From assembly GCA_030019475.1 (NCBI GenBank), contig JASEER010000025.1, forward strand, positions 1-34,539: a DNA stretch of 34,539 bases. The letters are read 5' to 3'. The notes below the pieces were generated by a model. That model was given only the letters and a program-made list of their open reading frames with translations. It searched no databases and had not been told where the DNA came from. A program made the translations under genes and the position numbers. The DNA is from Thermoanaerobacterales bacterium. Lineage in GTDB: Bacteria > Bacillota > Desulfotomaculia > Desulfotomaculales > JASEER01. Each line of letters begins with the position of its first letter. Within the stretch, counting starts at the first letter, position 1. Positions 13,415 through 34,539 of this stretch are shown here, one piece after another.

Positions 13415-13933
13415 GTGCTTAAGAACTACGCCGAGATCGTGGTCGCGGAAGTCCTGGATGCGATCGCGCGTATCTACCAGGAACGCCGGGAATACTGCTT
13501 CTGTCCACGCTGCCGCGAGGACATCAGCGCCATTGCCCTGAACCGGCTCCCGCCCCGGTACCTGGTTCGGGACGAGGGCTACGTCTTCACGCACGTCGAA
13601 TTCGACAAAGTAGGCGGCAGGGCGGAAGTAATTGCCGCGGTAATGTACGGACTGGAAACAGTGTGCAAGAACCCCCGCCATGGCGAGGAACGCATCATTG
13701 AACCGCTTGGTCCGGTTAGCCAGTTACCGAACGACAATTTGGAGGAGGTGCCGGTTGTGGAAAAGCGGTGTATACTTTGCGGCCGTAAGTTCGTACCGGA
13801 GGAGGAGCTGACGCCGCAGGACGACGAGGATGAACTCCTGACGCCGCGGAAAACGGTGTCTGTTTGCCGGCTCTGCCAGGCCAAGCTCAAGCACGAAGCT
13901 GATGAGGCTCAGAAGCTGCCCAAGCCGATGTAG
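13415..13933 (+). CDS. comFB: ComFB-like late competence protein with zinc-finger tail
   Basis: Late competence protein ComFB family, 172 residues. The N-terminal ComFB domain (about residues 1-90) begins NYAEIVVAEVLDAIARIYQE, and holds one Cys pair in FCPRCREDISAIALNRLPP, the family core, with a further stretch ending in VFTHVEF. Unlike the short ComFB proteins, the C-terminal half has a second predicted zinc site (CILCGRKF near 123 and CRLCQAKL near 152) separated by an acidic linker. The start is GTG 13415 with GAGGGGGG upstream. ComFB has no assigned biochemical role; related proteins in cyanobacteria have been linked to cyclic-di-nucleotide signalling. Confidence 0.75.
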   Translation: MLKNYAEIVVAEVLDAIARIYQERREYCFCPRCREDISAIALNRLPPRYLVRDEGYVFTHVEFDKVGGRAEVIAAVMYGLETVCKNPRHGEERIIEPLGPVSQLPNDNLEEVPVVEKRCILCGRKFVPEEELTPQDDEDELLTPRKTVSVCRLCQAKLKHEADEAQKLPKPM

Positions 13934-17975: not shown

Positions 17976-18482
17976 GTGGGGGCTTTGCCGCAAGAGGGTG
18001 CCCTGACCGTTCTGGGACTCGGTAACCTGCTCCTGAGTGACGAGGGCGTCGGCGTCCACGCTATCCGCGCCCTGGAGAAAGACAGTCCTCCGGGTGTGGT
18101 TCTGTTGGACGGGGGGACGGGCGGCCAGGACCTATTCTTCTGGATCGAGGGTGCCGCGGCCCTGATTGTGGTTGACAGTATTGACTGCGGCGCGGAGCCC
18201 GGGACCCTTTTCCGCTTCCGGCCGCAGGACCTCGACCTGGGAAGCGCGGCGGTTCCGTATTCACTGCATGAGATGCGCCTGCCTGAGATCCTGCGAATGG
18301 CGGAGGATGCCGGGCGGCTTCCGCCGACGGTTATCCTGGCCGTGCAGGTGGGTACGACCGATTGGGGACTGGAGCTTTCCCCGGCGGTGGCCGGGATGCT
18401 GGATCGCCTGGTGGGCACCGTCAAGGAGGAGATCGCCTTCTGGATGGTGCACCGCGGGTTTGCTCCCACACCGGGCGGATAG
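17976..18482 (+). CDS. NiFe hydrogenase maturation protease
   Basis: HybD/HyaD/HycI-type endopeptidase, 168 residues, that removes the C-terminal tail of the hydrogenase large subunit after nickel insertion. Nickel-sensing ligands are visible: Glu in GNLLLSDEGVGVHAI, Asp in LIVVDSIDCG and His in SLHEMRLPEIL. The likely substrate is the large subunit at 19861-21312, which has a tail after DPCLACAIH; the Ech large subunit in this window has none. The start is GTG 17976 with GGTGGAAAGG upstream; TTG 17988 is an alternative. It is the first gene of the exported-hydrogenase operon, an unusual place as it often follows the structural genes. Confidence 0.92.
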   Translation: MGALPQEGALTVLGLGNLLLSDEGVGVHAIRALEKDSPPGVVLLDGGTGGQDLFFWIEGAAALIVVDSIDCGAEPGTLFRFRPQDLDLGSAAVPYSLHEMRLPEILRMAEDAGRLPPTVILAVQVGTTDWGLELSPAVAGMLDRLVGTVKEEIAFWMVHRGFAPTPGG

Positions 18483-18516
18483 CGGGTAGAAAGAAGAAGG
18501 AGAGAGGAGTAATCCG

Positions 18517-18789
18517 GTGCGCATCGGCGTCCCCGAACTTATCCTGATCCTGATCATTGTCGTTGTCGTTCTGGGGCCCACCCACCTGCCACGTCTGGGC
18601 CGGGCTTTAGGACAGACAGTGCGGGCTTTCCGGCAGGGACGGGGCCTGGATGCCGCTCCGGCGCCGCCCATTGGGGCCGATAAAGGTGAAGAGAGCAAAA
18701 ACGCCGCCGCGATGGAAAACCCCGGGATGGTAAACAGAATGGTTACAGGCTGCATGCGCATGGCGCAGCGGTTGCTGAAACGTAAGTAA
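18517..18789 (+). CDS. TatA/TatB-family translocase protein (TatB-like)
   Basis: Small Tat translocase component, 90 residues: short N-terminus, Glu in GVPELILILI, one membrane helix, the hinge VVLGPTHLPRLGRALGQTVR, then an amphipathic helix and a basic tail. The hinge has Leu-Gly-Pro, as in E. coli TatB (VLGPQRLP), where the two other genes at 21482 and 21790 have the Phe-Gly-Pro of TatA. It may therefore play the TatB role, but Firmicutes often use one bifunctional TatA, so TatA is equally possible. The start is GTG 18517 with GAAGGAGAGAGGAG upstream. It lies between the maturation protease and the Tat-signal small subunit. Confidence 0.85.
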   Translation: MRIGVPELILILIIVVVVLGPTHLPRLGRALGQTVRAFRQGRGLDAAPAPPIGADKGEESKNAAAMENPGMVNRMVTGCMRMAQRLLKRK

Positions 18790-18902
18790 AGCAGGCCCAG
18801 GGGGGTGAGAGGAGAAAAATTAACGCACGGGTTGTCGGGGGTTTGTCGGCCCGTCAGCTGGCAAACGAACCTGCCTGCAAGTTTGATGGGAGGGAGAGAC
18901 AA

Positions 18903-19841
18903 TTGAGGTCCATTACACGGCGTGAGTTTATCAGACTCTGCGCCGGTTCGGCCGCGGGCCTGGGCTTGATGTCGGTCCTGGGTCCACATATTACAGAGAC
19001 GCTGGCCGAAGCGGCGGAGGGCAAGCCTCCGGTCATCTGGATCCAGGGCGCCAGCTGTTCCGGCTGTTCCGTGTCCTTGTTGAACAGCGTCGAGCCGCCT
19101 ATCGAAAAGGTCCTGCTTGATGTCATCAGCTTGAAGTATCACCCGACAATTATGGCGGGGGCGGGTCACCAGGCCTTTGAGGCTATGGAAGAAATCGCTG
19201 CGAAACATCGTCACGGCTTCTTCCTTGTTATCGAGGGCGGTATCCCGGTCGGTGAGAACGGGAAGTATTGCACCATCGGCGAAAGCAAGGGCCGCGAGAT
19301 CACCATGCTCGAGGCCGTGACCAAGCTCGGCGAGGCCGCCCAGGCCGTTATCGCCGCCGGTTCCTGCGCGTCTTTCGGCGGAATTCCGGCCGCCAGCCCG
19401 AACCCCACGAGCGTTGTGGGCGTCAGCGAGATTGTCAAGAACACGCCGGTCATCAACATCGGCAACTGCCCCATGCACCCCGATCACTTCCTGGGGACTG
19501 TGGTCTACGTCCTCACCTACGGGGAAATTCCGGAACTCGACCAGTATCACCGTCCCAAGATGTTCTACGGCGAGCCGATCCACGATCACTGCCCGCGGCG
19601 CCCCTACTTCGACAGCGGCAGGTTCGCGACCGAGCCGGGCGAAGAGGGCTGCCTTGCTCTTCTCGGCTGCAAGGGCTTTATCGCCAGGTCGGACTGCTGG
19701 AATCGCAAGTGGAACGGCGGGACCAACTGGTGCATCCAGGCGGGGGCACCCTGTCAGGCTTGCTCCGAACCCGAGTTTCCGGACGACTGCAGCCCACTCT
19801 ACGGCCTGTGGCCTGTTAAAGGCCAGCTGGCCGGTAAGTAA
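18903..19841 (+). CDS. Exported NiFe(Se)-type hydrogenase small subunit, Tat signal
   Basis: Small subunit of a group 1 periplasmic/extracellular uptake hydrogenase, 312 residues. The N-terminus carries a Tat signal (SITRREFIRLC, then a hydrophobic stretch and LAEAAEG). TTG 18903 is chosen since GGGAGGGAGAG lies directly before it and the twin Arg falls at 6-7; an upstream start at 18843 has no ribosome site. Proximal cluster: CSGCS at 52-55, CTIGE-type and GNCPMHP Cys. Distal cluster: HDHC, then GCLALLGC. Medial cluster: Cys265, Cys284, Cys287 plus Cys277 in NWCIQAG, where [3Fe4S] enzymes have Pro; this predicts a [4Fe4S] medial cluster as in NiFeSe hydrogenases. There is no C-terminal membrane helix, so the complex is soluble or held by a partner. 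Confidence 0.93.
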   Translation: MRSITRREFIRLCAGSAAGLGLMSVLGPHITETLAEAAEGKPPVIWIQGASCSGCSVSLLNSVEPPIEKVLLDVISLKYHPTIMAGAGHQAFEAMEEIAAKHRHGFFLVIEGGIPVGENGKYCTIGESKGREITMLEAVTKLGEAAQAVIAAGSCASFGGIPAASPNPTSVVGVSEIVKNTPVINIGNCPMHPDHFLGTVVYVLTYGEIPELDQYHRPKMFYGEPIHDHCPRRPYFDSGRFATEPGEEGCLALLGCKGFIARSDCWNRKWNGGTNWCIQAGAPCQACSEPEFPDDCSPLYGLWPVKGQLAGK

Positions 19842-19860
19842 CAGGGGGTGAAGATAGGAA

Positions 19861-21312
19861 ATGGCCACAAGAATCATCGTTGATCCCGTAACCAGAATCG
19901 AGGGGCACCTGAAGGTCGAGGTCGAGGTCGAGGGCGGCAAGGTGGTCGACGCCAAGTCGTCAGGCACGCTCTTCCGCGGTCTGGAGATGATTCTCCGGGG
20001 GCGCGACCCGCGCGACGCGCAGCATATCACCCAGCGCATCTGCGGCGTCTGACCCATTTCCCACGGCATCAGTTCGGTGCTAAACCTGGACAACGCCTTC
20101 GGCATCAAACCGCCCAAGAACGGGCGGATTGCGCGCAATCTGATTCAGGGCGCCAACTATCTCATGTCGCACGTTTTACATTTCTATCATCTGGCGGCCC
20201 TGGATTATGTGAAAGGGCCGGATACGGCGCCTTTCATCCCCCGTTATGACGGGAAGGATGTCTACCGTCTCCCCAAGGCCGCCAACGACGCCGCGGTGGG
20301 GAACTATATTAAGGCCCTGGACATCCGTAAGAAGGCGCACATGATGGTCGCGACCTTCGGCGCCAAGGCACCCCATACGACCGTCTTTGTCCCCGGTGGC
20401 ATCACCGAGGTCATCACCCAGGAAAAGATCGATAATTTCGCGAAACTGTTGGCCGAAGTCACCGACTTCATTGACAACGTTTACATTCCGGACGTCCTCG
20501 CGGTTGCCAAGTTCTACGAGGAGTGGTTCGAGATCGGCCGCGGCTGCGGCAATATGCTGGCCTGGGGTGTCTTCCCGCTCGGCGACGGAGACGATCCGGA
20601 CGGCCAGAACCAGTTTATCAAGCGCGGCTGCTACACCGACGGGGAGTTCGGTCCGGCCGACGCGGCGAAGATCAAAGAGCACGTGATGTACTCCTGGTTC
20701 GAGGCAAATACCAGCCAGCGCCACCCCAGCGAAGGGATTACCAAGCCCGATGCAGGGAAGCGGAATGCGTACTCCTGGCTGAAGGCTCCGCGCTACGACG
20801 ACAAGCCGCACGAGGTCGGCCCGCTGGCCCGGATGTGGGTGAGCAAGGAGCCGCAGACCGCCGGTTTGGGCGAGAAGGCGTTCTCCGTCCTGGGCCGCCA
20901 CTTTGCGCGGGCCGTCGAGGCATCCCTGGTCGCCCATGCAATGAAGGATTGGCTTGCCGAACTGGTTCCGGGCGAACCGACCTTTGCCCCGTTTGATATC
21001 CCGAAGGAAGCTAAGGGCATGGGCCTGACGGAGGCCCCGCGCGGTGCGCTCGGACACTTCATTGAGATCAAGGACTACCGCATCGCCAATTACCAGTGCG
21101 TGGTGCCGTCTACCTGGAACATGTCGCCGCGCGACGATCACGGCGTGGCGGGCCCCCTTGAGCAGGCCCTGGTCGGGACCCCGGTCAAGGATCCGGAGAA
21201 CCCCGTTGAACTCGTCCGTATCGTACGCTCCTTCGACCCGTGTCTGGCCTGCGCTATCCACCTGCTGGAGGTCAAGGGCCATAAAAAGAACGCTATGGCT
21301 TTCCGTATCTAA
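19861..21312 (+). CDS. Exported NiFe hydrogenase large subunit with in-frame TGA (predicted selenocysteine at codon 64)
   Basis: Catalytic large subunit of a group 1 hydrogenase, 483 residues if the TGA at 20050-20052 is read as selenocysteine. Normal callers will split it into 19861-20052 and a second frame from 20077. The frame before gives [15 protein letters not shown] and ITQRICGV; after the TGA it gives [18 protein letters not shown], so only the second Cys of the N-terminal nickel motif (Cys-x-x-Cys) is replaced. This position is a bridging Ni/Fe ligand. The C-terminal motif [10 protein letters not shown] keeps both Cys (461 and 464), and a 16-residue tail after His467 awaits the protease at 17976. 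Known NiFeSe enzymes instead have Sec at the first Cys of the C-terminal motif. A hairpin resembling a SECIS follows the TGA. A nonsense mutation or base error (TGC to TGA) is the alternative. Start ATG 19861; exported with the small subunit by Tat. Confidence 0.88.
20050..20089 (+). promoter_or_regulatory. Candidate bacterial SECIS element with its TGA
   Basis: After the TGA at 20050-20052, bases 20066-20070 (GCATC) pair with 20076-20080 (GGTGC) around the five-base loop AGTTC, which contains GT (GU in RNA). A second helix CCA (20061-20063) / TGG (20087-20089) may extend it. The loop starts 18 bases after the TGA, within the range usual for bacterial SECIS elements. The helix is short, so this is supportive rather than decisive. 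Confidence 0.5.
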
Positions 21313-21336
21313 AGAGGGCGGTACGGTTGACTCGCG

Positions 21337-21366
21337 AAAAGCCCCCCGACAAGGGGGGCTTTTCTT
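21337..21366 (+). terminator. Intrinsic terminator after hydrogenase large subunit
   Basis: AAAAGCCCCCC / GGGGGGCTTTT with a five-base loop and a T-rich end (TTTTCTT). It separates the hydrogenase genes from tatA-tatA-tatC. Confidence 0.9.
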
Positions 21367-21413
21367 CCTGGAGAGCCCTTGATTTTCACGGTTAAGCGGG
21401 CAGGAATTGCGGT

Positions 21414-21442
21414 TTGACCGGCGAACGTAACTATGATATCTT
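21414..21442 (+). promoter_or_regulatory. Sigma-A promoter of the tatA-tatA-tatC operon
   Basis: TTGACC (21414-21419), 17 bases, TATCTT (21437-21442), about 40 bases before tatA. With the terminator upstream, it gives the Tat genes their own transcription. Confidence 0.6.
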
Positions 21443-21481
21443 TGTCTATGGTAAAGAGGGGTGTGAGGGAGGGGAGAGTCA

Positions 21482-21751
21482 ATGTTTCCACAGATTGGCA
21501 TGCCCGAGCTGATCATTATTTTGGTCGTGGCCCTGATCATCTTCGGCCCCAAGCGGCTTCCCCAGGTGGGGAGGTCTTTAGGTAAAACGCTTTCCGAGTT
21601 CAGGCGGTCCTCCCGGGATATAACCGAGGACGTGACCGCAAGCGTGAAGGACGTCAAGGAGGAGATCGAGGGCGTTAAGTCCGCGGTGACCGAGGCCAAC
21701 CCTATGAGCGCCCCGAAGCCGGCCGAGGGATCGCCCGCGGAGAAGGCTTAA
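21482..21751 (+). CDS. tatA: TatA, sec-independent translocase (copy 1)
   Basis: TatA pore-forming subunit, 89 residues. MFPQIGMPELIIIL with Glu9 near the helix start, one membrane helix, the FGPKRLPQVGRSLG hinge, an amphipathic helix and a charged tail ending in Pro/Ala/Glu-rich sequence. GGGAGGGGAGAG precedes ATG 21482. Its first 50 residues are nearly the same as those of the next gene, showing a recent tandem duplication with divergent tails. It belongs to the Tat module that accompanies the Tat-dependent hydrogenase. Confidence 0.94.
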   Translation: MFPQIGMPELIIILVVALIIFGPKRLPQVGRSLGKTLSEFRRSSRDITEDVTASVKDVKEEIEGVKSAVTEANPMSAPKPAEGSPAEKA

Positions 21752-21789
21752 GCGACGACCATTGATACGGGAAGAGGAGGAGGAGCATA

Positions 21790-22047
21790 ATGTTTCCTCG
21801 CATTGGAGTACCGGAACTGATTATCATCCTGGTCGTGGCCCTGATCATCTTCGGTCCCGGCAAGCTGCCCGAGGCGGGCAAGGCCCTGGGGCGGACAATC
21901 AGGGAGTTTCGCAAGTCGTCGAAAGAGACAATAGACGACCTGCAGGACAACATCCAGGACGTTGAAGAGGAAAAGCCGGCTGCCGGTGTGGCAAAGGCGG
22001 TGGAGGCAGCGAAGGTGACCGAAACCCCGAAGGCGGTAAAGAGCTAG
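21790..22047 (+). CDS. tatA: TatA, sec-independent translocase (copy 2)
   Basis: Second TatA, 85 residues: [14 protein letters not shown], membrane helix, [14 protein letters not shown] hinge, amphipathic helix and an acidic then Lys/Ala-rich tail. GAAGAGGAGGAGG lies before ATG 21790. The membrane helix ([11 protein letters not shown]) is identical in protein sequence to copy 1, and about 25 bases of DNA across it are also identical. Whether the copies form separate or mixed oligomers cannot be read from the sequence. Confidence 0.94.
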
Positions 22048-22146
22048 GCTGCAAAGGGAAATCCGTACCGCAAACACGCCCCTGAGGAGAGAGGGATTGG
22101 CGCCTTCTTGCCGGGGGCTGTTGTTTGACGGGGGGAGGCGTTAGGA

Positions 22147-22932
22147 GTGGCCGGGAAGAACCACGAAAAGGAACTCTCGATTTACCAGCACCTTGATGAG
22201 CTACGGCGCGTTTTGATCGTTTCGGTTGTGGCGGTCGCTGTATTTGCTATAGGTGGGTATTATTTCACGGACCGGATCATGGCCGTTCTTCTGGAGCCGG
22301 TGACCCAAGAGGGGTACGACATTGTCTTTATCGGGATCACCGAGGCCCTGATGACGAAAATCAAGCTTTCCCTGGCTGTAGGTTTTATAGCCGCCCTGCC
22401 GGTCATCCTCTGGCAATCCTGGACCTTCATCGCTCCGGCGCTCAGTAAGAATGAACGCAAGTATGTCAGGTGGTTTGTGGTGGTAGCCTTCGGGGCCTTC
22501 GTAGGCGGGGTTTCCTTCGGCTTTTTTGTTGTCTACCGGATGGGCGTCAAGTTCCTGCTCCAGTTCGCCGGCCCGGAACTGGTGCCGATGCTGACCATCG
22601 GGAACTATATCTCGTTCACCATTTCGTTCCTCATGCCCTTTGGCCTTGTCTTTGAACTGCCCCTGGCGGCCTTCTTCCTGTCCAAGATCGGCATAATTAC
22701 CTACCCGCTGCTGGCGAAGAGCCGGAAGTTCGCCGTCCTGGGCATCCTGGTTATGGCGGCGGCCCTCACACCGACACCCGACATCTTTACAATGATGGTG
22801 ATGGCCGGACCAATGTACCTGTTGTTCGAGGTCAGTGTCTGGATCACCCGCATGGTTGAGCGGGGCAAGGAGCGCCGGGCGCGCGCCGAGGCCCTGGCCG
22901 AGGCGGCGGAGGCCGAACCGCAACACCTCTAA
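22147..22932 (+). CDS. tatC: TatC, twin-arginine translocase receptor subunit
   Basis: TatC, 261 residues, six predicted membrane helices. It binds the twin-Arg signal of folded cofactor-containing proteins. Marks: YQHLDELRRVLIVS at the N-terminus (conserved Leu-Asp-Glu-Leu-Arg), FIAALPVILWQSWTFIAPAL, FELPLAAFFL with the conserved Phe-Glu-Leu-Pro, and LTPTPDIFTMMVMAGPMYLLF. Start GTG 22147 with GGGGGGAGG and TAGGA upstream. The C-terminal tail is Ala/Glu/Arg-rich. A possible terminator/REP hairpin follows. Confidence 0.95.
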   Translation: MAGKNHEKELSIYQHLDELRRVLIVSVVAVAVFAIGGYYFTDRIMAVLLEPVTQEGYDIVFIGITEALMTKIKLSLAVGFIAALPVILWQSWTFIAPALSKNERKYVRWFVVVAFGAFVGGVSFGFFVVYRMGVKFLLQFAGPELVPMLTIGNYISFTISFLMPFGLVFELPLAAFFLSKIGIITYPLLAKSRKFAVLGILVMAAALTPTPDIFTMMVMAGPMYLLFEVSVWITRMVERGKERRARAEALAEAAEAEPQHL

Positions 22933-24186: not shown

Positions 24187-25881
24187 GTGCTTCCCTCTTT
24201 GAAACTGAAACCCGGTCAGGATTTCCTCGGGACCCGGCTGGTTGAAGCCGGGGTGATTACTCCGGAGCAACTGCAGGAGGCCCTGAAGAAGCAGACTACC
24301 CGGAACGGGACGAAGGAGCGGCTCGGCAGGATCCTTGTCAGACTCGGCTACTGCACCGAGGACGACATCGCCCGGGTCCTGGGCGAGCGCGCCGGCGTGC
24401 CCTTCCTGTCGCTCGAGTCCTTCCCCGTCAACGCCGCGGCGGCGGCGACCATCTCGCCCGAGACGGCGCGGCGGTACCGCGCCCTGCCGATCGCCTTCGA
24501 GGACAACCGTCTGGTTGTGGCCATGATGCGTCCCGATGACGTTATCGCCATCGACAACCTGCGCATCCTCACCGGCTATGACATCCAGCCGGTGACGGTC
24601 CCGGACAGCGAACTGGAGGCGGCTATCGAACGGTTCAGCCGTACCGGGGCCGAAGTTGAGGCGGGAGTGGAAGAGGAGCCCGTATCGGAGGTCGTACCCG
24701 GCCCGGAGAATGATACAACGGATAAGCCGGCGGTTCACCTGGCGAACCTGATCTTCAGTCAGGCCGTGAGCGCCGGGGCCAGCGACGTGCACATCGACCC
24801 GCAGGAGAAGGGGGTACGCGTCCGCTTCCGTATCGACGGGGTGCTCCACGACGTGATGCACCCGCCGCGGAGACTGCACCCGGCCCTGGTTTCGCGTATC
24901 AAGGTCCTGGCGAACATGGATATCGCCGAACGGCGCGTCCCCCAGGACGGGCGGATGACCTTGAAGATTGAGGGGAAGACCGTCGACGTGCGCGTGGCTA
25001 CTCTACCCGGCGCCTACGGCGAAAAAGTGACCCTACGCCTCCTGGACCGCACGGGCAAACTGATCACCCTCGACGAACTGGGGTTCGCGCCGCCGGTCCT
25101 GGCCGCCTATCGTGAGGGGGCGCGTCTGCCCTACGGGTTCATCCTGGTGACCGGACCGACGGGCAGCGGCAAGAGCACGACCCTTTACGCCACCCTGGCC
25201 GCACTAAACTCGACGGAGAAGAACATCATCACCGTGGAGGACCCCATCGAGTACCGCATCGACGGGGTCAACCAGATCCAGATCAACCCCCGCGCCGGTC
25301 TTACCTTCGCCACCGGCCTGCGCTCGATCCTGCGCAGCGACCCCGACATCGTCATGATCGGGGAGATCCGCGACCAGGAGACGGCGCGCATTGCCGTGGA
25401 GTCGGCCCTTACAGGGCACCTGGTCCTGTCGACCCTCCACACCAACGATGCGGCCGGGGCGATCACCCGCCTGGGGGACATGGGCATCGAACCCTTCCTG
25501 ACCGCGTCTTCACTGGTTTGTATCTTGGCCCAGCGCCTGGTCCGCGTCCTGTGCCTGAACTGCAAGGAACCCTACGAACTCCCGGCCGCCGAATGGCGGC
25601 GCGTCGCCGGCGCCGCGGACGCCGACGACCGGCCTATACGCCTTTACCGCCCGCGGGGCTGCCTGCGCTGCAGCAACACCGGCTACCGCGGACGCATCGG
25701 CGTCTATGAGCTTTTGCGCGTCACCGAGCCCATCCGGCGTCTCACGCTGGCGCGGCGGTCGGCGGGGGAGATCAAGGAGGCTGCCGTAGCCGAGGGGATG
25801 GTCACCCTGTTTGAGGACGGGCTGTTGAAAGTCAAGAAAGGGATAACGTCACTGGAAGAAGTGATGAGGGTGATCATATGA
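24187..25881 (+). CDS. pilB: Type IV pilus assembly ATPase PilB (GspE family)
   Basis: Cytoplasmic ATPase that powers pilus extension, 564 residues. The N-terminus is an MshEN/T2SSE_N-type domain (about 1-155) with two RLG-like repeats: FLGTRLVEAGVITPEQLQ and RLGRILVRLGYCTEDDIA. The ATPase core has Walker A GPTGSGKSTTLY (about 323), Asp box, Walker B MIGEIRDQET (about 388) and the His box LSTLHTNDAAGAITRL. A four-Cys zinc site follows (CLNC near 455, CLRC near 491), typical of PilB and GspE but not PilT. The start is GTG 24187 with TTCGAG only upstream; the ribosome site is weak. First gene of the pilus operon; its stop overlaps pilT by four bases. Confidence 0.93.
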   Translation: MLPSLKLKPGQDFLGTRLVEAGVITPEQLQEALKKQTTRNGTKERLGRILVRLGYCTEDDIARVLGERAGVPFLSLESFPVNAAAAATISPETARRYRALPIAFEDNRLVVAMMRPDDVIAIDNLRILTGYDIQPVTVPDSELEAAIERFSRTGAEVEAGVEEEPVSEVVPGPENDTTDKPAVHLANLIFSQAVSAGASDVHIDPQEKGVRVRFRIDGVLHDVMHPPRRLHPALVSRIKVLANMDIAERRVPQDGRMTLKIEGKTVDVRVATLPGAYGEKVTLRLLDRTGKLITLDELGFAPPVLAAYREGARLPYGFILVTGPTGSGKSTTLYATLAALNSTEKNIITVEDPIEYRIDGVNQIQINPRAGLTFATGLRSILRSDPDIVMIGEIRDQETARIAVESALTGHLVLSTLHTNDAAGAITRLGDMGIEPFLTASSLVCILAQRLVRVLCLNCKEPYELPAAEWRRVAGAADADDRPIRLYRPRGCLRCSNTGYRGRIGVYELLRVTEPIRRLTLARRSAGEIKEAAVAEGMVTLFEDGLLKVKKGITSLEEVMRVII

Positions 25882-27050
25882 GCGACGGCAACCGTTCTTT
25901 CAACCTGGATGAGATCCTGATCGAAACCGTGCGCCGTCAGGGCTCCGACCTGCATCTCACGGCCGGCGTGCCCCCGGTTATGCGCATCCACGGCGACCTG
26001 ATCCCCTTGGACGAGCGGCGCCTTACACCGCAGGATGTCGCCGACCTGGTGCTGCCGGTCTTGGAGCCCAGCCAGCGCCGGCGGCTGGAGGAAGAATGGG
26101 AACTCGATTTCTCCTACTCCATCCCGGGCGTCAGCCGTTTCCGCGGGAACATCATGCGCCAGCGGGGCAGCCTGGCTGTCGCCTTCCGGGTGGTCCCCAC
26201 GCAGATCCCCCGCCTCGAGGACCTGGGCCTGCCTGCGGCGGTGAGGGACCTCTGCTTTCTGCCGCGCGGCCTGGTGCTGGTCACGGGCCCGACCGGCAGC
26301 GGCAAGTCCACGACCCTGGCGGCCATGATCGGTGTGATCAACCGGGAGCGCAGCCTGAACATCGTCACCGTCGAGCAGCCGATTGAATTCCTGCATAGTC
26401 ACGGGCGGAGCATAGTCAAACAGCGCGAGGTGGGCAGCGACACCCATTCCTTCGCCGACGCCCTGCGCCACGTCCTGCGCCATGACCCCGACGTTATTCT
26501 CATCGGGGAGATGCGGGACCTGGAGAGTATCGCCATCGCCCTGACCGCCGCCGAGACCGGTCACCTGGTCCTGTCCACCCTGCACACTCAGACCGCGCCC
26601 CTGGCGATCCACCGCATCGTGGACGTCTTCCAGGAGCATATGCAGAACCATGTGCGGCAGCAACTGGCCGATTCCCTGCAGGGCGTCATCGCCCAGCAGC
26701 TTGTGCCCACAGCCGACGGTACCGGCCGGGTGGTGGCCGCCGAGTTGATGCTGGCCACGCCGGCGGTGCGCAACCTGATCCGCGAGAGCAAGGAGCACCA
26801 GCTCTATACGGCCATGGAGACCGGCCGCGCGGCCGGTATGCAGACCATGGACCAGGCCCTGGCCGAACTGTGTCTTACCGGACGCATCACACGGGACATG
26901 GCCTTTCTGCGCTGCGTGGACCGTGCCGAACTGGAGCGGTTACTGCAAAAGGGAGCGGCGACCCGGACCAGGGATGCCGCTGTGCAGCGGACGACGTGGT
27001 TTAGCGGCGTTACCGCGGGACTGAACGGCGTAAGACGGGACAACCGGTAA
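25878..27050 (+). CDS. pilT: Type IV pilus retraction ATPase PilT
   Basis: Retraction ATPase PilT, 390 residues. N-terminal PAS-like domain with GSDLHLTAGVPPVMRIHG; Walker A GPTGSGKSTTLAAMIG (about 137), VEQPIEFLHSHGRSIVKQREVG, Walker B LIGEMRDLESI (about 208) and the His box LSTLHTQTAPLAIHRIVDVF. No four-Cys zinc site, as expected. The last 45 residues beyond the usual PilT end (after ELERLLQKG) are a basic, Arg/Thr-rich tail. ATGA overlap with pilB implies coupled translation. Its presence indicates dynamic, retractile pili, fitting twitching or DNA uptake. Confidence 0.94.
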   Translation: MSDGNRSFNLDEILIETVRRQGSDLHLTAGVPPVMRIHGDLIPLDERRLTPQDVADLVLPVLEPSQRRRLEEEWELDFSYSIPGVSRFRGNIMRQRGSLAVAFRVVPTQIPRLEDLGLPAAVRDLCFLPRGLVLVTGPTGSGKSTTLAAMIGVINRERSLNIVTVEQPIEFLHSHGRSIVKQREVGSDTHSFADALRHVLRHDPDVILIGEMRDLESIAIALTAAETGHLVLSTLHTQTAPLAIHRIVDVFQEHMQNHVRQQLADSLQGVIAQQLVPTADGTGRVVAAELMLATPAVRNLIRESKEHQLYTAMETGRAAGMQTMDQALAELCLTGRITRDMAFLRCVDRAELERLLQKGAATRTRDAAVQRTTWFSGVTAGLNGVRRDNR

Positions 27051-27077: not shown

Positions 27078-28298
27078 ATGATGAAGCGGATGGGCCTTTT
27101 TACTTACCAGATCATTGACCGGACGGGGAACACGGTCCGGGGGCAGATGGAGGCGGACCACGAATGGACGGCCGCCGCCCACCTGCGGAAGATGGGCTAC
27201 ACTGTGGTGGATGTTAATCCGGTGCGGGAATCCTCGTTCCGACAGGCCTTCCAGGTACGCCGCAGGGTCGGCGTCGGGGACTTAAGTCTCTTCAGCCGCC
27301 AGCTGGCGGCCATGCTGGACGCCGGCATTCCCTTGACCCGCTGCCTTTTCACGCTGGGACGGCAGACGTCGAACCCGGCCCTGGCCCGGGCGGCGAGCGA
27401 GGCGGCGCGGAACGTGGAGGCCGGAATGAGCTTCTCCGAATCGCTGCGCGCCCACCCCGAGATATTTCCTTCTTTATATGTCAGCATGGTCCGGGCCGGG
27501 GAGGTCGGCGGCACCCTGGAGGAGATGCTGCGCCGCCTTTCCGAACAGCTCGAGCGGGACAAGGGCCTCCGCGACAACGTACGCTCGGCCACCTTCTATC
27601 CGACGGTGGTCATCTGCTTCGCCACACTGGTCGTGCTGGGCATGATGTTCTTCATCGTTCCGATCTTCACGCGCTTTTTCCCGCCCGGGGTGGAGCTGCC
27701 CCTGCCGACCCGGGTGCTCATGGCCGTTTCCGACTCCCTGCGCCATTACTGGTACCTTTGGTTTCTGGCCGCGGCCGCGGCCGTACTCGGCCTATGCTTC
27801 TACCTGCGGAGCCCCTCCGGCCGCCGTTCCTGGGACCGCGTGAAGTTTAAGCTGCCGGTCCTGGGCTCGCTCTTCCAGCGGGCGGTCGTCGCCCGCTTCG
27901 CCCGTACCCTGGCTACGCTGCTCTCGGGCGGTATCCCCGTCCTGCAGGCCCTGGAGGCGGCCGGGCCGGCCACGGGCAGCACGGTGGTCGCCGAGGCCGT
28001 GCAGGAGGCCGGCGAGAAGATCCAGGAAGGGAAGAGCATCGCCGGGCCCCTGGAGGAGAGCGGCGTCTTCCCGCCCATGGTCATCCAGATGGTGTCCGTC
28101 GGGGAGGAGACGGGCTCCTTAAGTTTTCTTCTGACCAGGATCGCCGAGTTCTACGAGGCCGAGGTGGCGACCATTACCCGCGGGCTGACCGCGCTGATCG
28201 AACCGGTGCTGATCATCTTCGTCGGGTGCATCATCGGCGTCATTGTCGTTTCGATGTACCTGCCGATCTTCACCGTCGTCACCACGGTGGGGAGGTAG
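27078..28298 (+). CDS. pilC: Type IV pilus inner-membrane platform protein PilC
   Basis: Membrane platform protein, 406 residues, with two T2SSF domains. The first repeat has LSLFSRQLAAMLDAGIPLTR (about 70-90), the second RAVVARFARTLATLLSGGIP (about 270-290). Membrane segments are near 170-195, 220-240 and 375-400 (PVLIIFVGCIIGVIVVSMYL). It links the PilB/PilT motors to the growing pilus. GGGAGG precedes ATG 27078; ATG 27081 is equally possible. The gap after pilT is 27 bases. Confidence 0.94.
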   Translation: MMKRMGLFTYQIIDRTGNTVRGQMEADHEWTAAAHLRKMGYTVVDVNPVRESSFRQAFQVRRRVGVGDLSLFSRQLAAMLDAGIPLTRCLFTLGRQTSNPALARAASEAARNVEAGMSFSESLRAHPEIFPSLYVSMVRAGEVGGTLEEMLRRLSEQLERDKGLRDNVRSATFYPTVVICFATLVVLGMMFFIVPIFTRFFPPGVELPLPTRVLMAVSDSLRHYWYLWFLAAAAAVLGLCFYLRSPSGRRSWDRVKFKLPVLGSLFQRAVVARFARTLATLLSGGIPVLQALEAAGPATGSTVVAEAVQEAGEKIQEGKSIAGPLEESGVFPPMVIQMVSVGEETGSLSFLLTRIAEFYEAEVATITRGLTALIEPVLIIFVGCIIGVIVVSMYLPIFTVVTTVGR

Positions 28299-28305
28299 AC
28301 CCTTG

Positions 28306-29025
28306 GTGAACGGAAACGGCGTCGGGGCGCGTCCCGGACCCCCCGACCTGGAGGCTGCGGTCCGCGCCTACCGCGAGACCGGCGACGAGGAGCACCTCTG
28401 GGCCGTGATGCATGCCGGCCGGGGGCTGGTGCACCATTTCGCCGGCCTGCTTTCCGGCGGCCGGTCGGGCGAGGACTTGGTCCAGAGCGGGTATGAGGGC
28501 CTGCTCAAGGCCGTGCGGCGCTTCGATCCCGCCCGCGGCGTAAAGTTCACGACCTACGCCGCCCACTGCGTCATGGGCGAGATCCGCCACCAACTCCGGC
28601 GGGAGGCCGCCTTTTACCGCCCGGCCTGGGCGGCGGAACTGCAGGCGCGCATCCATGCCGCGGCCGACGACCTGCTACGGCGCACCGGAGAACCGCCCTC
28701 ACTGGCCGCGATCGCCCGGGCCGTCAACATCCGGGAGGAGGGGGTCATCGAGGCCCTGCGCGCGGGCACCGTTTCCCTCGACGCGCTGGACCTGTCGCGT
28801 ATCCGGCACCTGCGCTACGAGAGCTTCCGCCTGCCGGTCGAGGACGTCGTGGCCGTGCGCCAGGCCCTGGCGCGGTTGAGCGACCTGCAGCGGCGGGCGG
28901 TCTACCTGGTCTTCTACCGCGACCTGACCCAGGCTCAGGCGGCGGCCGCGCTGGGCGTCAGCCAGCGCCGCGTCTCCCGCCTGGTACGGCGGGGCCTGGC
29001 CCACATGGCCGTAAACCTGGCCTGA
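28306..29025 (+). CDS. Sigma-70 family sigma factor (sigma-F/G/B-like) in pilus operon
   Basis: RNA polymerase sigma factor, 239 residues, with regions 2, 3 and 4. Region 2 shows EDLVQSGYEGLLKAVRRFDP and GVKFTTYAAHCVMGEIRHQL; region 3 has PPSLAAIARAVNI; region 4 shows LSDLQRRAVYLVFYRDLTQA and ALGVSQRRVSRLVRRGL, a helix-turn-helix like that of sigma-F, -G and -B. It is not one of the named sporulation sigmas by its context. GTG 28306 is used; TTG 28303 is equally possible, both behind GGAGGT, which is itself formed by the end of pilC. The gene sits where many operons carry the major pilin. It may control pilin or pilus genes elsewhere; this is inference. Confidence 0.85.
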   Translation: MNGNGVGARPGPPDLEAAVRAYRETGDEEHLWAVMHAGRGLVHHFAGLLSGGRSGEDLVQSGYEGLLKAVRRFDPARGVKFTTYAAHCVMGEIRHQLRREAAFYRPAWAAELQARIHAAADDLLRRTGEPPSLAAIARAVNIREEGVIEALRAGTVSLDALDLSRIRHLRYESFRLPVEDVVAVRQALARLSDLQRRAVYLVFYRDLTQAQAAAALGVSQRRVSRLVRRGLAHMAVNLA

Positions 29026-29040
29026 CGGGAGGAATGCCCG

Positions 29041-30321
29041 ATGGCGCCTTTGCGCACCTGTAACGCCCATCCCGGCTGGGGTCAACGGGGTTTTACCCTG
29101 GTCGAAGTACTCGTCGCGCTTATGATCCTAACCGTTCTTACGTTGGCCTTTATACCGCTTTTTGTCTACATCAGCGAAGGTTCGCAGGCCAACCGAGCGC
29201 GCCTCGTCGCCACCAAGCTGGCGGCCGGCGTCATCGAGGAAATAAGAGCCTTAGATTATGAGCAGGTAGGCACGGTTGGGGGCAATCCCGAGGGCAGTAT
29301 ACCCCAGTTGCAAACGAAGCAGATAGAGGGGATCAATTACACGATAGAAACCCGTATCTGGTGGGTTCAGGGGTCTGACTCCAATGTCACCGCCTACAAG
29401 AAGGTGCAGGTGACCGTTAAAGCGCCCGATGCCCTTACCGGCGAGGTGGTTGATACTGCGGTGCTGGGTTCACTGGTCGCCCGGGAGGGCGAGAAGACTA
29501 TCGTCCAAGCTGGCGAGATCAAGGCGGAGGTACGCTGGCGCGATAGTTTGAAAGAAAACGTCAAGATTGACGTCACGTGCACGGAGACACAGACCGGATG
29601 GACCGACGAAGAGGGCAGTGTTATTTTCGGCGAGCTGCCCGCCGGCACTTACAGTGTTGCCGCCAGTTATTCTGAAATGATGGTTAAGCCGGTCGGTGTA
29701 ACGGGTCAGATCTGGAAAACAGTACGAGACAATATGCTGGTCGAGAACTGGAAAACCACGCCGGTGTATTTTGATGTCGAGTGGCCGGTGCAACTGGCCT
29801 TGACTTTGCGAGACGCCGATGGAAATCCCGTTTCCCCCGAATGCCTGACGGCGACCCTTAAGCCAGAGGGCGAAGAGTTTGCACTGTCATGCAGCCTGGC
29901 AACACTTGCCGAGCTGGATCTCTGGCCGGGCTGGACCTACGACCTTGAAATCAAGGATTTAACGGGCGATAAGTATATTCGATCCCAAAACCCGTCGGAG
30001 TGGGACGGTAACTTCAGCTTACCCAGTTCACCGACAACAGTACGAAAAACATTGACGGTCAAGGTTGGTATGCCTGTGGCTGATCCGACACCGGGGATTG
30101 TTCCTGAGGGTGCGGCGATTGCACTGACTGCGTTACCGGCCGATGCAGCTATCCATTATTCGGTTGATGGTACCGACCCGACCACCGAAAGCACATTGTA
30201 CGATCCCGACAATAAGCCCGTCATTCCTTCAGGCGGCCTGACCATAAAAGCTATCGCGGTGAAAGACGGGATGCTGAGCAGCGACGTGGTGGTTTTTCAA
30301 TATTCAACCCCTGCCCCTTGA
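29041..30321 (+). CDS. Minor pilin-like protein with adhesin-type domains
   Basis: Prepilin of type IV class, 426 residues, much longer than ordinary pilins. The leader ends QRG and is followed by FTLVEVLVALMILTVL, the PilV/GspI type N-terminus with Glu5 and a membrane helix. Then comes a pilin body (about 40-160), a carboxypeptidase-regulatory or Cna-B-like beta domain (KIDVTCTETQTGWTDEEG, then FGELPAGTYSVAASY, about 175-225), a second beta segment, and a C-terminal chitobiase/hexosaminidase-C-type domain (TALPADAAIHYSVDGTDPTT and LTIKAIAVKDGM, about 345-425). This suggests a tip adhesin, possibly for polysaccharide. ATG 29041 behind GGGAGGAA. Lower GC than its neighbours. Confidence 0.82.
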   Translation: MAPLRTCNAHPGWGQRGFTLVEVLVALMILTVLTLAFIPLFVYISEGSQANRARLVATKLAAGVIEEIRALDYEQVGTVGGNPEGSIPQLQTKQIEGINYTIETRIWWVQGSDSNVTAYKKVQVTVKAPDALTGEVVDTAVLGSLVAREGEKTIVQAGEIKAEVRWRDSLKENVKIDVTCTETQTGWTDEEGSVIFGELPAGTYSVAASYSEMMVKPVGVTGQIWKTVRDNMLVENWKTTPVYFDVEWPVQLALTLRDADGNPVSPECLTATLKPEGEEFALSCSLATLAELDLWPGWTYDLEIKDLTGDKYIRSQNPSEWDGNFSLPSSPTTVRKTLTVKVGMPVADPTPGIVPEGAAIALTALPADAAIHYSVDGTDPTTESTLYDPDNKPVIPSGGLTIKAIAVKDGMLSSDVVVFQYSTPAP

Positions 30322-30977: not shown

Positions 30978-31016
30978 CCGGCTTATTATGTCGAAAGCCG
31001 AAGGGAGGCCGGTATA

Positions 31017-32423
31017 ATGAAGGGCATATTGCGTAGCGAAGCCGGCATCGCTCTGCCGATTGTGATGGCCCTGGTTGTTATTATAAGCCTGCTTGGTTTC
31101 ACGGCGGCCTTCGTTGTCGAAAGCCAGTCGGTTATGGGGCAGCGCTTCGCCGGCGGTGAGGATGCCCTCTATTATGCCGAAGCTGGGTATAACAAGTATC
31201 TCTGGCACCTTAACGAGGACTCCAGGTTTTACGAGACAGCGGAAAGCGATGCATTGTTAAACGTGGACACACCGTTTCAAGACGGTTTCTACCGCCTGCA
31301 GATTCAAAAACCCACTACGGACGAGCCCGTCGTGACGATTACATCAACCGGTTGGCCGGCCAATGATCCGACCAATCGCCGGACCATTGAGGTTAAAGTG
31401 CATAAACGGCAGTTTGTACAACAGGTCTACTTGAGCAACAACGACGGTAGTGACATCTGGTGGACCTCCGGAGAAGAATGCCGCGGCCCCCTGCATACCA
31501 ATGGCACATTGAGAATTCAAAGGAGGCCCGTTTTCTACGGGCCGGTGACGTACAGCCAAGCGCTAGTGAAAGGGACAGGATACAATCCGGATTACAGAGA
31601 AGGGCCTCCGCAAAAGGTTGATCCGTTGGTTTTCCCCGCTAACAACCTCGACCTCAAAACATGGGCGGAGAAGGACAAATATCTTTATTATGGCCGGACC
31701 TGCATCTATTTAGATAACGATCAATTGGTTATCCGTGACCGAAACGGGAACCTGCAAACCAGGCCGCTCCCGCCCAACGGCGTGCTTTACGTTGACGGCG
31801 ACGGGACATCCAAGTGGGGCAGCAACACCGGCAATGTTTTCGTCTCGGGTACCCTGAGCGGACGGCTAACCATCGCCGCCAAGAACGACATTTACATCAC
31901 TTACGATGATCCGACTGATTGGAGCGAGCCGCCATGGTTCGCACCGGCCACCGGGGGAATTCGCTACGCCAATACAACTTTTATCCATCACGTAGTCGAC
32001 GGAAAGCTGGTCACTGAAGTCCAAGGCGACGACATGTTAGGGCTGGTTGCGAACAGGTGTATCTATATCTTGCATTACGGGTGGCCAAAGGAAGGACAAA
32101 ATGCTTATTGGGACTATAGGTTGCTTTGGCTAATTCCTTATGATGTTGCCCCGCACAAAATCACCATTCATGCCGCCATTTTCGCGATCAATAACGGCTT
32201 CGGCTATGAAGAATACGATAGCGGTCCGGCAAAAGGCGACATCAAGCTGATCGGCTCAATCATTCAGCAGACCCGCTTACCTGTGGGTGAAATTGGCGGG
32301 AGCGGCTACGATAAGGACTACACGCACGACCCCCGTATGCGCTACGATTACCCGCCCCATTTCCTGGAACCTCAAAATGCAGGCTGGGAAGCGGTCAACT
32401 GGCGGGAGATTGCCAATCCGTAG
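31017..32423 (+). CDS. PilX-like pilus protein with large C-terminal domain
   Basis: Predicted exported pilus-associated protein, 468 residues. The N-terminus SEAGIALPIVMALVVIISLL resembles PilX/GspK-type prepilins, with Gly before a hydrophobic helix but without the Glu5 of ordinary pilins. GEDALYYAEAGYNKYLWHLN follows, the PilX pattern of an alpha helix after the membrane segment. The main part (about 130-468) resembles DUF4900-type domains: HTNGTLRI, VLYVDGDG, VFVSGTLSGRLTIAAKNDIY. GGGAGG precedes ATG 31017. It closes a run of three minor-pilin-like genes before pilM. The role of the large domain is unknown. Confidence 0.72.
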   Translation: MKGILRSEAGIALPIVMALVVIISLLGFTAAFVVESQSVMGQRFAGGEDALYYAEAGYNKYLWHLNEDSRFYETAESDALLNVDTPFQDGFYRLQIQKPTTDEPVVTITSTGWPANDPTNRRTIEVKVHKRQFVQQVYLSNNDGSDIWWTSGEECRGPLHTNGTLRIQRRPVFYGPVTYSQALVKGTGYNPDYREGPPQKVDPLVFPANNLDLKTWAEKDKYLYYGRTCIYLDNDQLVIRDRNGNLQTRPLPPNGVLYVDGDGTSKWGSNTGNVFVSGTLSGRLTIAAKNDIYITYDDPTDWSEPPWFAPATGGIRYANTTFIHHVVDGKLVTEVQGDDMLGLVANRCIYILHYGWPKEGQNAYWDYRLLWLIPYDVAPHKITIHAAIFAINNGFGYEEYDSGPAKGDIKLIGSIIQQTRLPVGEIGGSGYDKDYTHDPRMRYDYPPHFLEPQNAGWEAVNWREIANP

Positions 32424-33522: not shown

Positions 33523-34212
33523 ATGTCTGAGGTGAGAATCAACCTGATTCCTCCGGAGATCGCCGCCCGGCGGCGGGCGCGGCGGCGTCGCGGCCTCTGC
33601 CTGCTGGGCGGCGCCGTCGTCCTGGCGGTCTTCCTCGGCGTCTACGGGGCGCTGTTCGCGGCCGCGGCCCACTCGCGGGCCGAGGCCGCCCGCCTGCGGG
33701 CGGAGCGGGAGGGCCTGGAACGGCAGGCGGCCGCCTACGAGCAGTACGCCAACCTACGGGCCGAGGCGACGCGCGCCGAGGGGCTGCTGCGCCAGGTTGT
33801 GGGGGCGCCCCCGGACTGGGCGCGGACGCTGGCCGGCATCGGGCTATACATCCCGGCCAATGTCTGGCTGACCGATTTCGCGGCCACCTGTAAACCTGCA
33901 GAGGGCAAGAAGACGGCGCCATCGGCTCCCCCCGCCGCCCCGGCTGCGGGCGCGGAAGGTCAGGGCGCTACGCCGGCGTCGTCTCCTCCTCCGCCGGGCG
34001 GGGAACTGACCGTCCGCGGCTGGACCTTCGACCACCCGTCAGTCGCCCGCTGGCTGGAGGAGATCCGTAGTGTTCCCGGCTTGACTGATGTGCGCTGCCA
34101 GTTCTCCTCCGAGGATGACCTGTACGGGCAGCCCATGGTCCAGTTCGAGATCAAGGCCACGCTGCTGCCGGGTCCGGCCTTCCGGCCCGCGGCGGGAAAG
34201 GCGGGTGAGTGA
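33523..34212 (+). CDS. pilN: Type IV pilus assembly protein PilN
   Basis: PilN, 229 residues: short cytoplasmic segment with the PilM-binding motif INLIPPEIAARR at 5-16, a membrane helix (about 25-48), a coiled-coil stretch rich in Arg/Glu/Ala, then a small ferredoxin-like domain broken by a Pro/Ala-rich linker (about 128-155). ATG 33523 is directly after pilM. Its stop is four bases before ATG 34217 of pilO. Confidence 0.9.
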   Translation: MSEVRINLIPPEIAARRRARRRRGLCLLGGAVVLAVFLGVYGALFAAAAHSRAEAARLRAEREGLERQAAAYEQYANLRAEATRAEGLLRQVVGAPPDWARTLAGIGLYIPANVWLTDFAATCKPAEGKKTAPSAPPAAPAAGAEGQGATPASSPPPPGGELTVRGWTFDHPSVARWLEEIRSVPGLTDVRCQFSSEDDLYGQPMVQFEIKATLLPGPAFRPAAGKAGE

Positions 34213-34216
34213 GCGG

Positions 34217-34539
34217 ATGGCCGACACGAAGCGTTTTTCCTCCGGCCTCCTGACCGTCCTCCTGGGCGTTCTGGCCCTGGCGGCCATGGCCTTCCTGTTG
34301 TACACCCAGTACGGCGCGCTGAACGCCGCGCGGGACGCGGCGGCCGGCGAGCAGGTGGCCGTCGCCCGCGCCCGGGCGCGGCTTGCGGAACTCAAGCAGG
34401 CCAAGGAGCAGGCCGCCGCGCTGGAGGAACGGCTGGCCGCCTTCGACCGTCTGCTGCCGGCGGAGCCCGACGAGGACGTATTGATCACCGACCTGCAGAA
34501 CGAAGCCGACCGCAGCGGGACGCGTCTTCTGCAGATCCG
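34217..34539 (+). CDS. pilO: Type IV pilus assembly protein PilO, 3' partial
   Basis: Start of PilO, running off the window after about 107 residues. A short basic N-terminus (MADTKRFSSG), one membrane helix (LLTVLLGVLALAAMAFLLYT) and a coiled coil (about 40-80) are followed by LLPAEPDEDVLITDLQNEAD, the conserved start of the PilO periplasmic-type domain. PilO pairs with PilN. GTG 34205 overlapping the pilN stop is an alternative start. The operon continues beyond the window. Confidence 0.85.
   Translation, partial: MADTKRFSSGLLTVLLGVLALAAMAFLLYTQYGALNAARDAAAGEQVAVARARARLAELKQAKEQAAALEERLAAFDRLLPAEPDEDVLITDLQNEADRSGTRLLQI

Follow-up and report, generated by a model that had tools for sequence, protein, structure and literature searches.

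Sigma factors for type IV pilin genes

Group 3 of the sigma-70 family comprises factors that have regions 2, 3 and 4 and lack region 1.1. In the flagellar FliA-FlgM checkpoint, a late structural subunit is made under a sigma factor that is tied to the assembly programme.

In Synechocystis, SigF (group 3, SigB-like) directly transcribes the major pilin gene pilA1, with GGTAA at -12 (accessible text of PMC2758279 and PMC8546353). The core promoter is TAGGC / GGTAA. The sigF gene is under the same promoter (autoregulation), and there are more than 50 candidate targets; promoters of SigB and of cyanobacterial SigF are also quoted (accessible text of PMC2758279). In Rubrobacter, the group-3 sigma factor WhiG and its c-di-GMP-loaded anti-sigma RsiG control type IV pilus genes. 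The promoter is TAAA / GCCGATAA, and WhiG serves several pil units as well as dgc/pde genes (accessible text of PMC8325347).

Little is known about what turns on type IV pili in Gram-positive bacteria. The word "sigma" is absent from the main text of a survey of these pili (PMC3244431), and the accessible part of a C. perfringens study mentions only SigV. No description of this pilus-operon sigma factor was found in the open-access literature searched.

The sigma factor described here is encoded in a pilus operon of the window, which is the whole stretch of 34,539 nucleotides that was analyzed. Compared with the accessible account of Synechocystis SigF, it is likewise a SigB-like sigma, and its relatives have a distinct candidate promoter at the major type IV pilin. 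It is unlike SigF in being a Firmicutes gene within a pil operon, in its element (GTCTAAA / GGTATAAC) and in that no autoregulation or wider regulon was seen. Rubrobacter WhiG, as far as described in the accessible text, belongs to the flagellar sigma clade, whereas the window's genome has a separate FliA/WhiG-type sigma. As with FliA-FlgM, a subunit would be under an assembly-tied sigma, but the clade and the promoter are different and no FlgM-like partner is linked. SigB of B. subtilis and S. aureus gives the best structural match, with other sigmas tied or close, and has a related promoter form, but there is no RsbW-type partner beside our gene, which scores 80.7 against the SigB equivalog cut-off of 315. 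The Firmicutes case thus differs from the known pilin sigmas in clade, promoter and operon placement, in having no linked partner and no autoregulation, and in its apparently single target.

The sigma gene in the pilus operon

The pilus operon of the window has the following features:

24187..25881 (+), pilB, extension ATPase with an MshEN (c-di-GMP-binding) N-terminal motif; T2SSE 459 bits, MshEN 71 bits, NF053729 63.8 bits (cut-off 38)
25878..27050 (+), pilT, retraction ATPase; TIGR01420 469.8 bits (cut-off 319.1)
27078..28298 (+), pilC, inner-membrane platform protein; T2SSF 217.8 bits
28290..28296 (+), Shine-Dalgarno site GGGGAGG, made by the last codons of pilC; from the sequence
28306..29025 (+), pilus-operon sigma factor, 239 aa; Pfam regions 2 and 4 above cut-off, orthologs, structure model
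29041..30321 (+), minor prepilin, PilV-like, with a C-terminal CHB_HEX domain; N_methyl 29.6 bits, CHB_HEX_C_1 50 bits
30318..30977 (+), minor prepilin; N_methyl 33.3 bits
31017..32423 (+), PilX-like minor pilin component; only a weak DUF4900 match in Pfam, homologues in the corresponding position of loci L158, L210 and L213
32482..33516 (+), pilM; TIGR01175 164.5 bits (cut-off 133)
33523..34212 (+), pilN; PilN 23.2 bits (cut-off 22.8)
34217..34539 (+), start of pilO, cut by the end of the window and contig; 52.6% identity over 97 aa to PilO of locus L208

The earlier note had placed a sigma gene between pilC and the minor-pilin genes, with a Shine-Dalgarno site formed by the end of pilC. Both statements hold. 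The open reading frame starts with GTG, and an in-frame TTG at position 28303 is a possible alternative start. The end of pilC (GTGGGGAGGTAG) holds the GGGGAGG, and a similar GGGAGG or AGGAGG is seen again inside the pilC end of many relatives. The placement of the ribosome-binding site and its recurrence support translational coupling of the sigma gene with the machine operon.

The protein matches Pfam Sigma70_r2 with 51.3 bits (cut-off 24) and Sigma70_r4 with 49.8 bits (cut-off 24.1); these two regions are thus present, as in group 3. The match to Sigma70_r3 (21.0 bits) is below its cut-off of 25.3. An AlphaFold model (mean pLDDT 86) consists of sigma2, a three-helix sigma3 and sigma4; the three helices are at the place of region 3 (residues 107-152), between regions 2 and 4.

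Intact orthologs were found in 12 of 100 relatives (E-value of 1.4e-72 or better). The next intact sigma is at 3.0e-25, and a 70%-identical fragment in genome G049 is at 2.3e-23. The ortholog directly follows pilC in 11 of the 12; in the twelfth (G058), it is beside the major pilin. A search of the class (113 genomes, nearly the same set) added only one partial sigma (G101). In a phylum sample, 25 of 398 genomes match at an E-value of 1e-50 or better. Two of these are the window's own genome and one member of its order, leaving 23 outside the order. Carriers with a name are three Dethiobacter-like or Bacillota MAG contigs, one of which (L017) seems, from its length and content, to be the same contig as L155. 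Type IV pilus genes are beside the sigma gene in all 23, and pilC directly adjoins it in 18. The earlier note had considered that a lack of conserved synteny would suggest chance insertion. Because pil linkage is kept in 12 of 12 relatives from the order and in 23 of 23 genomes elsewhere in the phylum, chance insertion is ruled out.

A promoter-like element at the major pilin

A conserved element, GTCTAAA-N13/14-GGTATAAC, precedes the major-pilin gene in sigma-bearing loci. It was first noticed by eye upstream of major-pilin genes and was then searched as a pattern. It ends 22-72 bases before the called start codon; it is promoter-like and has a SigB/SigF-like form. Every one of the 12 relatives whose sigma is intact shows a single match to the pattern at the major pilin; in G095, an additional match is unrelated and not at a pilin. 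The pattern also occurs in 3 of the 88 relatives that lack an intact sigma. Two of these (G036 and G086) retain broken sigma genes at the same place; the match in the third (G008) is not at a pilin. Judged by this pattern, all 12 sigma-bearing relatives in the order would have a distinct promoter at the major pilin, as is the case for Synechocystis SigF.

When scored with a weight matrix, each site being left out in turn, the 12 sites from the order reach 24.5-32.0. For the null, the remaining gene starts of these loci were scored (649 in all); they have a mean of 3.4, an sd of 3.5 and a maximum of 16.3. Outside the order, 13 of the 23 loci extend to a major pilin, and 12 of these score at least 20 (25.6 in the named contig L015; L167 and L168 are near-identical and not independent), with only 15.6 in L176. 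No element site was found in the other 10 phylum loci, where no major pilin is in view. When whole loci were scanned, every score of at least 20 was at a major pilin or, in L016, at a contig edge where the pilin would begin. The earlier suggestion that the sigma may switch on pilin genes is therefore plausible as to a pilin target; the target indicated is, however, the major-pilin gene with its own promoter and not the minor pilins that follow the sigma gene.

Of the 100 relatives, 26 encode a PilC of this cluster type (E-value of 8.6e-146 or better, at least 486 bits). Eleven of these have an intact sigma, two a broken one and 13 none. The latter 13, together with G055 (partial PilC), form a control set of 14 loci, in all of which no sigma was found at the site. 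The major pilin is in view in 13. Eleven score between -1.5 and 8.2, L208 scores 14.7 and L218 scores 20.2; of the 13 relatives without sigma that could be scored, 12 thus lack the element at their orthologous pilin. With the element in 12 of 12 relatives with sigma versus 1 of 13 without, the two-sided Fisher test gives p 2.7e-6 when relatedness is ignored. The elements of L208 and L218 look decayed; in a tree of PilC, L218 groups as sister to a locus with sigma. This tree requires a minimum of 8 changes for the sigma and 6 for the element. In supported phylogenetically independent pairs (broken sigmas counted as absent; PilC rows L057, L069 and L214 dropped by the score threshold), sigma and element never go in opposite directions; with only four usable pairs, the sign test does not reach significance.

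Linked genes, regulon and proposed mechanism

When the open reading frames within about 10 kb were contrasted between 12 sigma-bearing and 14 sigma-less clusters, the sigma was the sole perfect discriminator (12 versus 0). The next best is a PilP-like protein (10 versus 4). Because the sigma alone separates the loci in this range, no linked anti-sigma is visible. The Pfam scan of the window proteins, in which many minus-strand open reading frames are probably not genes, also found no anti-sigma domain. Neither approach found a linked anti-sigma, which agrees with the earlier observation that no such gene lies beside the sigma.

Genome-wide matches to the element with up to two mismatches show no excess over a reversed-pattern control in 29 genomes; summed over the 12 genomes from the order with sigma, there are 100 matches versus 145 in the control. 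As these counts are not above the control, no larger regulon shows. Before the pilB operon, the element was not found in any of the 12 sigma-bearing loci from the order (best scores -2.1 to 6.1) or in the window (2.3). Autoregulation through the same promoter is thus not seen. Since the pilB operon starts without the element, the machine and the sigma would be made from another promoter.

We consider it likely (probability about 0.8) that this is a dedicated alternative sigma factor for type IV pili, acting by feed-forward on the major-pilin promoter and without autoregulation. The reading draws, at the level of sequence, on the gene, its synteny, the element, the co-variation of sigma and element, and the lack of any other linked gene that co-varies. 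The sigma would be co-transcribed with the assembly genes, to which the Shine-Dalgarno site in pilC would couple it translationally. RNA polymerase with this sigma would then transcribe one main target, the separate GTCTAAA-N13/14-GGTATAAC promoter just upstream of the major-pilin gene, and we infer that its regulon is essentially this one promoter. The bulky structural subunit would thus be made only in cells already making pilB, pilT and pilC. The whole would be a feed-forward loop of one step that lacks autoregulation, in which the machine and the sigma come from another promoter and the sigma then drives the pilin. Control would probably lie in how much sigma there is, not in a linked anti-sigma. 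The earlier note had the pilin genes switched on once the machine is made. That wording stands as gene order only, with the sigma translated along with the machine operon and the pilin promoter being separate.

As an extra layer on this mechanism, the sigma might be held by a pilus component (PilC, PilM or PilB) and released when the machine is complete. Nearly every carrier has the gene inside its machine operon, there is no linked anti-sigma, and PilB is predicted to have a c-di-GMP-binding motif, all of which would suit such an arrangement. The sequences carry no sign of such binding, and the simple feed-forward loop accounts for the arrangement alone, so that we regard this layer as unlikely. 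It is tempting to speculate that a one-sigma, one-promoter cassette widespread in Firmicutes acts as a pilus completion checkpoint, with the sigma sequestered by a machine component encoded by a neighboring gene and freed when assembly is ready; we find this doubtful. If true, this would be for pili what FlgM-FliA is for flagella, but with no exported anti-sigma, and few known sigmas would be as narrowly dedicated as this one, the regulon of which would be a single promoter.

Whether or not such a layer exists, the feed-forward reading opens pilin control to direct tests: regulator and promoter are both defined, and close relatives that have a disrupted gene or have lost it, with a promoter that is still intact or has decayed, serve as natural knock-outs. 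A sigma with a visible regulon of one promoter may serve as a clean system for sigma-promoter co-evolution and as an orthogonal expression pair.

Broken sigma genes

Four genomes carry sigma genes with internal or terminal deletions:

L094:9337-9667 (genome G036), broken sigma gene
L095:8850-9080 (genome G086), broken sigma gene
L154:5151-5753 (genome G101), broken sigma gene
L069:1116-1322 (genome G049), broken sigma gene

All four keep the element (L069 26.8, L094 26.6, L095 23.4 and, weaker, L154 17.9). Three of them are in one genus (g25), which suggests repeated recent loss. Retention of the element next to a broken sigma is what one would expect from a recent loss of the gene that preceded any loss of the element. 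The same retention is the main argument that the element might be used by something else.

The element could instead be a sigma-A promoter combined with an activator site (GTCTAAA) for another regulator, the operon sigma acting elsewhere. TATAAC differs by a single base from TATAAT, the -10 hexamer of sigma-A, and the element persists in the four broken-sigma genomes. The score of 20.2 in the sigma-less L218 and that of only 15.6 in the sigma-bearing L176 also speak against recognition by the sigma. On the other hand, the element is missing in the 12 sigma-less relatives mentioned above and is tracked by no other linked gene. In addition, its form, GTxTAA and GGxTAT spaced much as for SigB, would be appropriate for a SigB/SigF-type holoenzyme when compared with the promoters in the accessible text of PMC2758279. 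On balance, we consider a sigma-A promoter with an activator quite unlikely, and we infer that the pilus-operon sigma recognizes GTCTAAA-N13/14-GGTATAAC.

In several loci with a missing or broken sigma (L218:10270-10302, L208, L211 and L154:9784-9816), the -10 part has moved toward TATAAT or TATAGT. This looks as if sigma-A took over the pilin promoter.

Assignment to a sigma family

The earlier note had called the protein sigma-F/G/B-like. This is correct as to the nearest relatives. The best NCBIfam model is that of SigB/SigF/SigG (TIGR02980, E-value of 2e-35), and the best match of the structure model to a solved structure is S. aureus SigB in a promoter complex (8x6g, Z 13.4, rmsd 12.5 over 153 residues), with other sigmas tied or close and with no meaning attached to the absence of a family from the match list. 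By curated cut-offs, however, it is not a member, since it reaches only 122.6 of the required 234.35 bits, about half. It also falls short of the models for sporulation SigF (TIGR02885, 99.7 versus 321.45), FliA/WhiG (TIGR02479, 78.6 versus 189.6), SigB and SigG.

The same genome encodes SigA, SigE, SigF, SigG, SigH, a FliA/WhiG-type sigma, a SigI-like sigma and a SigK fragment as separate genes (the SigK match and most SigI matches are under their cut-offs). Its own SigF (322.1) and SigG pass the cut-offs of their equivalog models, and its FliA/WhiG-type sigma scores 248.6. A tree of 45 proteins places the 26 pilus-operon sigmas together in a single clade versus all others (SH-aLRT 99), with the caveat of one long branch, FliA/WhiG, beside it. 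The clade is set apart from SigF, SigG, SigE, SigK, SigA and FliA/WhiG of the same genome. A sporulation sigma is rejected by the model scores, by the genome's own SigF and SigG and by the separate clade.

That an ordinary stress or sporulation sigma (SigB/SigF/SigG type) with a broad regulon sits in the pil operon by chance is very unlikely, despite the nearest curated model and the best fold match, given the half-height score, the genome's own SigF and SigG, the separate clade, the pil linkage in all 12 + 23 genomes and the lack of a genome-wide excess of near-motif sites.

Further sigma genes are present in or near the pilus cluster of some genomes. Genome G450 has tandem pilus-type sigmas (L169:812-1522 and 1773-2834), one of which is a longer (about 350 aa), less conserved form. 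A similar long form is present in the pilus cluster of G292 (L177:9547-10593). In two genomes from one genus, a second sigma that groups with SigE/SigK is found a few kb from the pilus cluster (L166:18064-18768 and L170:3861-4586).

The window's own genome and additional observations

The major pilin of this cluster was not found in the assembly of the window's own genome, and the contig ends inside pilO. For this reason, no element is seen at any pilin of this genome. Of the six prepilins found, two are the minor ones of this operon and the other four belong to a second cluster, on contig 11, where the element before the prepilin is absent. A single relaxed match (C6) is inside an open reading frame, and a match with two mismatches (C5) has no pil gene near it. 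The window itself has only one weak likeness:

30990..31018 (+), two mismatches, matrix score 15.6, overlapping the start and ribosome-binding region of the next gene

It is ambiguous, scores below the null maximum of 16.3 and is probably due to chance. Locus L158 has a 69% identical sigma, the same gene order and the same kinds of minor pilins as the window. There, the major pilin follows pilB and is preceded by a near-perfect element. By analogy with L158, we predict that the unseen major pilin of the window's genome, located beyond pilO, has an element resembling GTCTAAA-N14-GGTATAAC, too.

Pilus clusters from the Firmicutes compared here encode a Secretin_N (plus STN-like) protein of 400-460 aa (L064:13315-14640, L057:10419-11801 and homologues). 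Pfam does not find the secretin pore domain in these proteins, and the one from L057 has no match in the window's own genome. The C-terminus of the minor pilin at 29041-30321 is a CHB_HEX / Fn3-associated domain, which is unusual in a PilV-like pilin.

A ComFB-family gene is located at 13415-13933 (+), about 10 kb from the pilus operon, the PilB of which has the c-di-GMP-binding motif. In cyanobacteria, ComFB acts as a receptor for c-di-GMP. Upstream of the pilus operon (17976-22932, +), the window codes for the small and large subunits of a NiFe hydrogenase, a HycI protease and TatA/TatC.
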